Program-made: the position numbers and the translations under genes
Shown: piece after piece, positions 1,771-3,981 of the stretch
How the letters are laid out: each line of letters begins with the position of its first letter
Numbering within the stretch: position 1 is the first letter of the stretch
From: Bryobacterales bacterium
GTDB lineage: Bacteria; Acidobacteriota; Terriglobia; Bryobacterales; Bryobacteraceae
DNA: 64,000 nucleotides
Reading direction: 5' to 3'
Assembly (NCBI GenBank): GCA_016789905.1
Contig: JAEUQC010000136.1
Span: 1-64,000 of the forward strand
The notes under the pieces: generated by a model
Told to the model about the DNA's origin: nothing
Seen by the model: the letters and a program-made list of their open reading frames with translations, nothing else
Databases searched by the model: none

Positions 1771-2253
1771 GTGGTGAACAGCATGTTTGATTGGCTAATA
1801 GGCGCTCCCCTTGCCGTCGGCTCTATCGCCCCGGCATTCGATCTCCCAGATGAAAACGGCCGTCCTGTGTCCTTGTCCGCCCTCAGGGGCAAACCCGTCG
1901 TCCTGGTCTTCTACCCCGGTGACGACACGGCCATCTGCACCAAACAGCTCTGCGAGATCCGTGACGACTGGAAGTCCTTCCAGCGTTACAACGCCGTTGT
2001 CTACGGCATCAATGGCCAGGGCGCCGAAGCCCACGGCAAGTTCTCCGCCAAATACCGTTTTCCCTTTCCGCTCCTCGTCGATCACGGCTGGCTCACCTGC
2101 AAGGAGTACAACGCCGGCTGGGGCCTCGTCCGCCGCACGGTCTATGTCATCGGCCCTGATGGCCGCATCCTCTACGCCAAACGCGGAAAGCCCTCCACCG
2201 CGGAGATACTCACCGCCATGGAGGGCCTTCTCGCCAAACGCGCTACTTCTTAA
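1771..2253 (+). CDS. Peroxiredoxin, BCP/PrxQ type
   Basis: 160 aa, a normal length for the BCP/PrxQ branch of the AhpC/TSA family, which reduces hydroperoxides with thiols from thioredoxin. The active site reads FYPGDDTAIC (Cys56, peroxidatic), with a second Cys five residues later (Cys61). That spacing is the known peroxidatic/resolving pair of atypical 2-Cys PrxQ enzymes. A thioredoxin fold is visible, from PVVLVFYPG to the RTVYVIGPDGRILY strand. No signal peptide, so it is probably cytoplasmic. The GTG at 1771 is the called start; an ATG four codons later is an alternative. Its 3' end overlaps the convergent selenocysteine-type peroxiredoxin by 11 bp, so a Cys enzyme and a putative Sec enzyme of the same superfamily sit tail to tail. 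Confidence 0.85.
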   Translation: MVNSMFDWLIGAPLAVGSIAPAFDLPDENGRPVSLSALRGKPVVLVFYPGDDTAICTKQLCEIRDDWKSFQRYNAVVYGINGQGAEAHGKFSAKYRFPFPLLVDHGWLTCKEYNAGWGLVRRTVYVIGPDGRILYAKRGKPSTAEILTAMEGLLAKRATS

Positions 2254-2767
2254 TCCGCTGACACGCCGCTATCGACGCTTCGTTATGCGGCGCCGGCCGG
2301 CCGTCGGCAATGATCTCAACAATCTTGCCCGTCTTGTCAATGACGAACGTCGTTCGGCTGGCGATGCCGCGTTCCGCCATCAGTACGCCATACGCCTTCG
2401 CCGTGTTGCGATTCGGAAAATCCGATAGCAACGGAAACTCGAGCGAGAGGTCGTCGGAAAAACGCTTCAGCGACGGTGCCGCGTCCACGCTAATTCCCAA
2501 TATCTGTGATTCCGCTTCGTTAAAGTTTTTGATTCCAGCCTGGAACCCTTTCATTTCCGCGGTTCAGCCACCCGTAAACGCCAGCGGGAAAAAGGCGAGC
2601 ACCACGGTCTTGCTGCCTTTGAAATCCGCCAACGAATACGTTTTGCCTGGAACCGAGGAACTGAGCTTGGTAAACTCCGGAGCCATGTCGCCAACCTTCA
2701 AATGCGTCTTGCCGTCTTGGGCAAATAGCGCGGTTGCGACGAGACCCAGGAAGAGTATTTTCTTCAT
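2243..2767 (-). CDS. Exported peroxiredoxin with in-frame TGA at the catalytic position (probable selenoprotein)
   Basis: Conventional gene calling would break this gene in two at the TGA at 2564-2566. The frame continues without interruption for 106 codons and completes one AhpC/TSA peroxiredoxin of 174 aa. The TGA is codon 68, in [20 protein letters not shown], exactly where the family has its peroxidatic Cys in the TxxC motif. Insertion of selenocysteine at that site is known in bacterial PrxU-type proteins, so Sec68 is the natural reading. A hairpin follows at SECIS spacing. The ATG at 2767 is preceded by GAGG and starts a signal peptide ([17 protein letters not shown]), so the enzyme is probably periplasmic. 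The only Cys in the mature part is five residues from the end (AACQRIKK), a possible resolving partner. It lies 41 bp downstream of the Xaa-Pro peptidase gene. The alternative is a pseudogene with a nonsense mutation. Confidence 0.82.
2531..2566 (-). promoter_or_regulatory. Putative bacterial SECIS element with its UGA codon
   Basis: Read on the minus strand, the TGA (2566-2564) is followed 16 nt later by GGTTCCA-GGC-TGGAATC (2547-2531). This is a 7-bp stem including one G-U pair, closed by a 3-nt loop beginning GG. The loop starts 24 nt after the UGA. Bacterial SECIS elements lie inside the reading frame just after the UGA, with the apical loop roughly 16-37 nt away and a G among the first two loop bases, so this fits the known model. 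Extra AAAG/CTTT pairing below the stem is possible. SelB binding is inferred. Confidence 0.7.
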
Positions 2768-2808: not shown

Positions 2809-3981
2809 CTATATCTTCACCATCTCCGTCTGCCGCTCCCCCGTCACCCGCGCGTCCCGTTCGCCCACAAAAACATTCACTTCGCTCCGGATGCCAAAGG
2901 CCGGCAAATACACCCCCGGCTCCACCGAAAAACACGTCCAAGGAATCACTCGCCGCACATCGTGCGTCTCCAGGTTGTCCATGTTCGCGCCCGACCCATG
3001 CACCTCTTCGCCAATCGAATGGCCCGTCCGGTGGATGAAGTAATCGCCAAACCCGTGCTCCCGGATATGCCCGCGGCACGCGTCGTCCACCTCGAATCCG
3101 CACAGCGGCAGCCCCGCGCCAATCGTATTCTGCACCTTCGCCACCGCCGCGTCTCGCGCCCCAGTCACCACCGTGAACACGCGCTGCACTTCATCAGGAA
3201 TCTCCTCGCCCGTGTACCCCGTCCACGTCACGTCGTAGTAAACCGTCCCCGGCTTGTTCAGCTTCGCCCACAGGTCAATCAGCACCACGTCGCCCTGCTT
3301 GATCATCTCGTAGTCGTCGGCGTGCGGCTCGTAGTGCGGGTTCGATGCATTCGCGTTCACGCCCACAATCGGCCCATGATCGGTAAACAGCCCCGCCCGC
3401 TCAAACGACCGCAGAATGAACGATTTCACCATGTACTCATTCACTGGTTCCCGCCCGCGCAGCAGGTCCCCGATCTCCACAAACGCCGCTCGCCGAATCT
3501 CATCCACCAGCACCCCGGCCTGCATATGCGAGTCCAGCTTCTCCTGGTTCCACTTCGCCTCGAAAATCTGCACCAGGTTCGCCGAAGTTTCCACCTCCAC
3601 GCCCTGCTCCCGCACCAGTTCCACGGTCCCGGCGTCCACCATCGCCACATACGGCACCGCGCACTGCGGCGAATACTGCATCGCCACCCGCTTGCATCCG
3701 TTCAGCAGCATCGTCAATCCATACACCTGCCGCGACCAGCTCGAATAGCTCTGCGTCGTTCCCGGCAGCGCGTCCAGCATCGACGGCTCAATCTGGTGTA
3801 CTAGCTTCCTGGGCTCCCCGTTCGCCGGAATCAGGTAATACCAGCGCCGCGACGGCGTCCGCGGCGGCGTAAAGTCCAGCACCCGGTACGCCAGCGGATC
3901 CCGCAAATGATGGTCGAAAAACAGCCACCCATCCAGCTTCTCTTCGCGCAGTGCCTCTTGAATCGCCGCAACGTTCATCAT
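2809..3981 (-). CDS. M24-family Xaa-Pro peptidase
   Basis: 390 aa. The N-terminal creatinase-like domain (about 1-160) precedes a pita-bread catalytic domain. The five metal ligands of the M24 family are all visible: Asp236 (VVLIDLWAK), Asp250 (VYYDVTW), His321 (HRTGHSIG), Glu354 (FSVEPGVY) and Glu367 (SEVNVF). The enzyme should remove an N-terminal residue before proline or split Xaa-Pro dipeptides in the cytoplasm. Its start overlaps the stop of the upstream POT peptide transporter by 4 bp (ATGA), so uptake of small peptides and their cleavage are translationally coupled. The selenocysteine-type peroxiredoxin follows 41 bp downstream. Prolidase and aminopeptidase P cannot be told apart here. 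The related creatinase reaction is less likely given the transporter partner. Confidence 0.85.
   Translation of the reverse strand: MMNVAAIQEALREEKLDGWLFFDHHLRDPLAYRVLDFTPPRTPSRRWYYLIPANGEPRKLVHQIEPSMLDALPGTTQSYSSWSRQVYGLTMLLNGCKRVAMQYSPQCAVPYVAMVDAGTVELVREQGVEVETSANLVQIFEAKWNQEKLDSHMQAGVLVDEIRRAAFVEIGDLLRGREPVNEYMVKSFILRSFERAGLFTDHGPIVGVNANASNPHYEPHADDYEMIKQGDVVLIDLWAKLNKPGTVYYDVTWTGYTGEEIPDEVQRVFTVVTGARDAAVAKVQNTIGAGLPLCGFEVDDACRGHIREHGFGDYFIHRTGHSIGEEVHGSGANMDNLETHDVRRVIPWTCFSVEPGVYLPAFGIRSEVNVFVGERDARVTGERQTEMVKI

Follow-up and report, generated by a model that had tools for sequence, protein, structure and literature searches.

The window analyzed here, a 64,000-nucleotide stretch of a Bryobacterales genome, holds on its minus strand a peroxiredoxin reading frame of 174 codons, complement(2243..2767), in which translation meets a TGA at codon 68 as the sole interruption. 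This TGA (complement 2564..2566) falls at residue 68 of a PxxxTxxU motif, and a Pfam AhpC-TSA match runs continuously across it (E = 3.1e-35), bearing out the claim of an earlier note, which left the strand unstated, that the frame stays open and family-like beyond codon 68. A GAGG motif resembling a ribosome-binding site lies 7 nt 5' of the ATG, and the protein ends in the residues AACQRIKK. As had been predicted of standard annotation, ORF calling breaks the gene into two fragments. The features of the locus are as follows:

2243..2767, minus strand: predicted selenocysteine peroxiredoxin coding sequence, 174 aa, Sec at 68, stop TAG (translation with TGA as Sec, Pfam AhpC-TSA, dN/dS)
2564..2566, minus strand: TGA, the predicted codon of Sec68 (conserved in 17/17 orthologues of the genus and 91/113 homologous stretches)
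2531..2547, minus strand: bacterial SECIS-type hairpin (covariation, synonymous-shuffle control, covariance model)
2720..2767, minus strand: predicted N-terminal signal peptide (hydrophobic N-terminus in orthologues, low pLDDT in residues 1-20)
2261..2263, minus strand: codon of Cys169, a last-helix residue and candidate resolving cysteine (no other Cys follows the active site in any of 98 orthologues)
2809..3981, minus strand: upstream M24-family metallopeptidase, context (Pfam 5.4e-32; gene order conserved in some of the genus)
1783..2253, plus strand: convergent Cys-type Bcp/PrxQ-like peroxiredoxin, context (Pfam AhpC-TSA 2.2e-32)

The convergent Cys-type gene overlaps the 3' end of the Sec peroxiredoxin by 11 bp, and such a Sec/Cys pair is present in about half of the genus. 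In genome G030, where Sec and Cys paralogues coexist, a Cys paralogue (L027) occupies the position of the convergent gene, and at L146 a Sec form and a Cys form are neighbours on a single contig (3001-3516 and 3616-4125).

A peroxiredoxin match was found in all 61 genomes searched, the window's own and its relatives, and the TGA is kept in every one of the 17 orthologues from the genus whose sequence extends to the site, a count that takes in the window's own gene. Across 113 homologous stretches, which include 80 extra loci from named Acidobacteriota MAGs (Bryobacterales, Solibacter, Pyrinomonadaceae, Blastocatellia), the catalytic codon is TGA in 91, TGC in 21, with some of the TGC rows representing more distant Bcp-type paralogues, and CGC in a single decayed tandem duplicate that has further stops and sits beside an intact copy (L061, G017:C8:143250-143534). 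The alignment of homologues that the earlier note had proposed as a check shows Cys or TGA at precisely this codon. Downstream of the TGA, dN/dS within the genus is mostly 0.02-0.12, indicating strong purifying selection. The idea that the TGA is a true stop, in a pseudogene or through sequencing error, would fit the two fragments given by standard gene calling, but it has next to no probability in view of a TGA common to the whole genus sample and dozens of other genomes, the constraint that follows it, and the different look of the truly decayed G017 duplicate, with its CGC and other stops. The chance that the locus encodes a short peptide before the TGA plus a second protein initiated at an ATG four codons after it is likewise negligible: although an ORF with this ATG exists (2243..2554), a single Pfam domain match spans the TGA without a break and takes in both halves, each Cys homologue is one ORF with no stop inside it, and many homologues have another codon (GCC, CTG or GTC) where the ATG stands.

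Two variations on the active site were also observed. In a sub-branch (L033, L038, L079 and others) Val replaces the first Pro of PxxxTxxU (YVLAFTGGU), and Bcp/PrxQ-like peroxiredoxins of other acidobacterial genomes (L074, L075, L076, L077) have TGA as the catalytic codon (TPG-TGA), so in this phylum the use of Sec may extend beyond a single peroxiredoxin lineage.

The hairpin that follows the TGA, GGTTCCA-GGC-TGGAATC, is exactly as first described, with a 7-bp stem and a GGC loop; 16 nt separate the TGA from the stem, which begins at the 17th nt, with the loop at the 24th. Its proposed role as a SECIS element could not be carried by the lone hairpin, which is not evidence by itself and whose single-sequence fold energy is not significant (z = -0.2). 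Local codon bias also failed to separate this TGA from chance when all TGAs of the window were scanned: the TGA at 2566 ranked second of 110 TGA sites, while TAA and TAG sites equal or exceed its score, meaning that bias alone proves nothing, and six other top-scoring TGA sites had no Pfam match. It is comparison that separates the TGA from chance, since the TGA and its hairpin are kept across genus, family, order and phylum with compensatory changes. Over 22 TGA sequences, pairing in the 7-bp stem reaches 90%, with 14 two-sided changes vs 3.9 in shuffles (0/500 as high), tallies that count sequences rather than independent events, and shifting the pairing register abolishes the stem signal; in seven Cys homologues the stem is 45% paired, close to shuffles. 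Among the inner stems, TTCCA/TGGAA, TACCA/TGGTA and TATCA/TGATA predominate. At least four of the five inner pairs form in all 74 distinct TGA sequences, against 27% expected from synonymous recoding that leaves the peptide unchanged, but in only 1 of 16 Cys sequences (6% expected from the same recoding), and the loop starts with G in each of the 74 TGA forms. Kept with covariation where the codon is TGA and absent where it is Cys, the hairpin behaves as the earlier note would have it for a SECIS element.

A covariance model of the hairpin scored 67.5 bits at the window site and matched 53 of 61 relatives, two weak matches, in G033 and G005, falling in Cys genes; in a phylum-wide sample it matched 44 of 297 genomes, with weak scores in about ten. 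No second copy was found by this model in the window's own genome, though the model misses the selD SECIS and its matches are therefore not a list of all selenoproteins.

A search for selenocysteine machinery, also proposed at the outset, located selA, selB, selD and a tRNA-Sec with a UCA anticodon in the genome (assembly of 8.08 Mb, 216 contigs). The tRNA-Sec scores 69 bits, selB 364 bits against a cut-off of 242, and selD 356 bits, while selA is split over two contig ends, its pieces overlapping by about 50 residues. The genome's weaker tRNA-Sec matches are tRNA-Ser, tRNA-Leu and tRNA-Trp. The selD gene has its own in-frame TGA at the active-site codon (KAAG-U-ASK; L055:1531-1585, contig C28), followed by a strong 7-bp hairpin with a GGU loop; read from sequence, this is an independent sign that UGA is decoded as Sec in this genome, and selD would be its second selenoprotein gene. 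In relatives with completeness of 90% or more and contamination of 5% or less, a SECIS match never occurs without a tRNA-Sec match above the cut-off, and the TGA-bearing genomes without a tRNA-Sec match (G018, G023, G034, G037, G039) are fragmented, incomplete or contaminated assemblies. In G053, which has the Cys form FTGGC, the best tRNA-Sec match (49.5 bits) is called tRNA-Ser by ARAGORN and no selB exceeds the cut-off. G027 has a selB over the cut-off, with a tRNA-Ser as its best tRNA-Sec match, and a close orthologue of the peroxiredoxin gene was not found there.

The frame would be open whatever the TGA means, and it could in principle be read as another amino acid (as Cys or Trp, or by a suppressor tRNA) or under a different genetic code; with tRNA-Sec(UCA), selA, selB and selD all present and the hairpin kept only in TGA forms, such decoding is very unlikely, although some Cys or Ser may enter at codon 68 under selenium limitation. 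The locus combines an in-frame UGA aligned with the redox Cys of homologues, a SECIS hairpin with G in its small apical loop, and a host with SelA, SelB, SelD and tRNA-Sec, as is expected of bacterial selenoproteins, and we put at roughly 95% the probability that complement(2243..2767) is one gene for a selenocysteine peroxiredoxin of the TxxU type. The SECIS hairpin directly downstream would cause SelB and Sec-tRNA(UCA) to insert Sec at UGA codon 68.

TxxU selenocysteine peroxiredoxins are an established selenoprotein family (PMC13188914), 43 members of which were counted in the Sargasso Sea (PMC1088965), and a few selenoproteins are already known in Acidobacteria (PMC1794560, PMC12013277). 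We found no published description of this acidobacterial branch in a search made mostly outside the subscription literature. Like PrxU of Eubacterium acidaminophilum and the Sargasso Sea Prx/COG1225 proteins, the predicted enzyme has an AhpC-TSA domain (PF00578) with Sec for the peroxidatic Cys of PxxxTxxC, here as PxxxTxxU with the catalytic Arg, and a bacterial SECIS with G in its small loop directly after the UGA (PMC13188914, PMC1088965, PMC1794560). The acidobacterial branch differs from these in its signal-like N-terminus, its C-terminal Cys, and an apparently ancestral Sec with Sec→Cys conversions. The original suggestion of a PrxU-type selenoenzyme stands as far as a Sec peroxiredoxin with TxxU is concerned; the NCBIfam model peroxi_PrxU (NF040737), however, gives 51 bits, far below its cut-off of 270, meaning that this is a TxxU selenoperoxiredoxin but not a PrxU equivalog, and it is rather AhpE-like. 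The score for the thiol peroxidase Prx-SUH (NF045827) is 48.8 bits vs a cut-off of 298; Prx-SUH is also a selenoprotein of the peroxiredoxin superfamily but has a CxxU motif, whereas residue 65 here is Thr.

An AlphaFold2 model (pLDDT 91.8) has its best fold matches in Sulfolobus Bcp4 and M. tuberculosis AhpE, and T65, residue 68 (Sec/Cys) and R138 are invariant in the alignment. AhpE (Mycobacterium tuberculosis Rv2238c, PDB 1xvw/4x0x) provides the closest solved structures by sequence (1.2e-22, 34-35% identity) and is among the closest by fold (TM 0.8-0.93). At about 34% identity AhpE is the nearest subfamily, and the protein fits it in fold and sequence; AhpE is, however, a Cys enzyme described as 1-Cys, and the sequence match stops before the Cys169 helix. 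The fold is also shared with archaeal Bcp1/Bcp4 (PDB 3drn, 3hjp) and with 2ywn, which has the same FYPAAFTxxCTKE active site, but these are Cys enzymes whose matched chains lack a signal-like N-terminal extension.

A strongly hydrophobic N-terminal stretch is present in 90% of 99 orthologues, and the sequence ahead of the peroxiredoxin motif has a median length of 28 residues, whereas it is mostly 3-10 residues long in the peroxiredoxins used for comparison. Residues 1-20 of the model have low pLDDT. From this signal-like N-terminus we infer that the Sec peroxiredoxin is probably exported. A lone Cys follows the active site in 98 of 98 orthologues, 98-104 residues beyond it; in our protein this is Cys169, which is invariant in the alignment and sits in a helix of the model (159-173), and as the single invariant Cys of the last helix it is a candidate resolving cysteine. 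A cytoplasmic 1-Sec AhpE-like selenoperoxiredoxin, with Cys169 structural and an external thiol resolving, would accord with the nearest solved structures, those of 1-Cys AhpE, but is less likely beside a single Cys at that spacing in all 98 orthologues and the signal-like N-terminus of most. For the exported enzyme with a resolving Cys, the Sec selenol would be the peroxidatic residue of the PxxxTxxU site, acting with catalytic Arg138, and Sec68 would, by analogy with the family, reduce H2O2 or organic peroxides. We lean slightly towards a cycle in which oxidized Sec is resolved by Cys169 to a selenenylsulfide, which an extracytoplasmic thioredoxin-like protein would then reduce.

Comparison of Sec and Cys forms also bears on the direction of change. 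On a quick tree of 101 ingroup rows (85 Sec, 16 Cys), an ancestral Sec requires 6 Sec→Cys changes, which is also the minimum, and 18 changes are needed if only Cys→Sec is allowed. Because many branches are weakly supported and sampling began from a Sec query, an ancestral Sec within this clade, with about six Sec→Cys changes, is only suggestive. A 2006 survey recorded 5 Cys→Sec events and no Sec→Cys events among peroxiredoxins (PMC1794560), and the clade offers Sec→Cys conversions that would run against this published trend. More tentatively still, at a little under even odds, these proteins may form a class of exported, AhpE-like peroxiredoxins that extends through the phylum and pairs Sec with Cys. 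Starting from an ancestral Sec, its members would have reverted repeatedly to Cys with loss of the SECIS, in some cases leaving Sec and Cys paralogues next to each other, and a Cys of the C-terminal helix would resolve the selenenic acid.

In conclusion, the checks proposed in the earlier note, as far as sequence comparison could make them, all favoured its reading. The enzyme is of a known kind, in a branch that looks exported, is widespread in Acidobacteriota and has some unusual predicted features. A well-supported enzyme branch that gene finders split is thereby added to a little-studied phylum of soil and groundwater, and a single orthologous group provides a natural experiment in which TGA goes with a selected hairpin and TGC with its loss.
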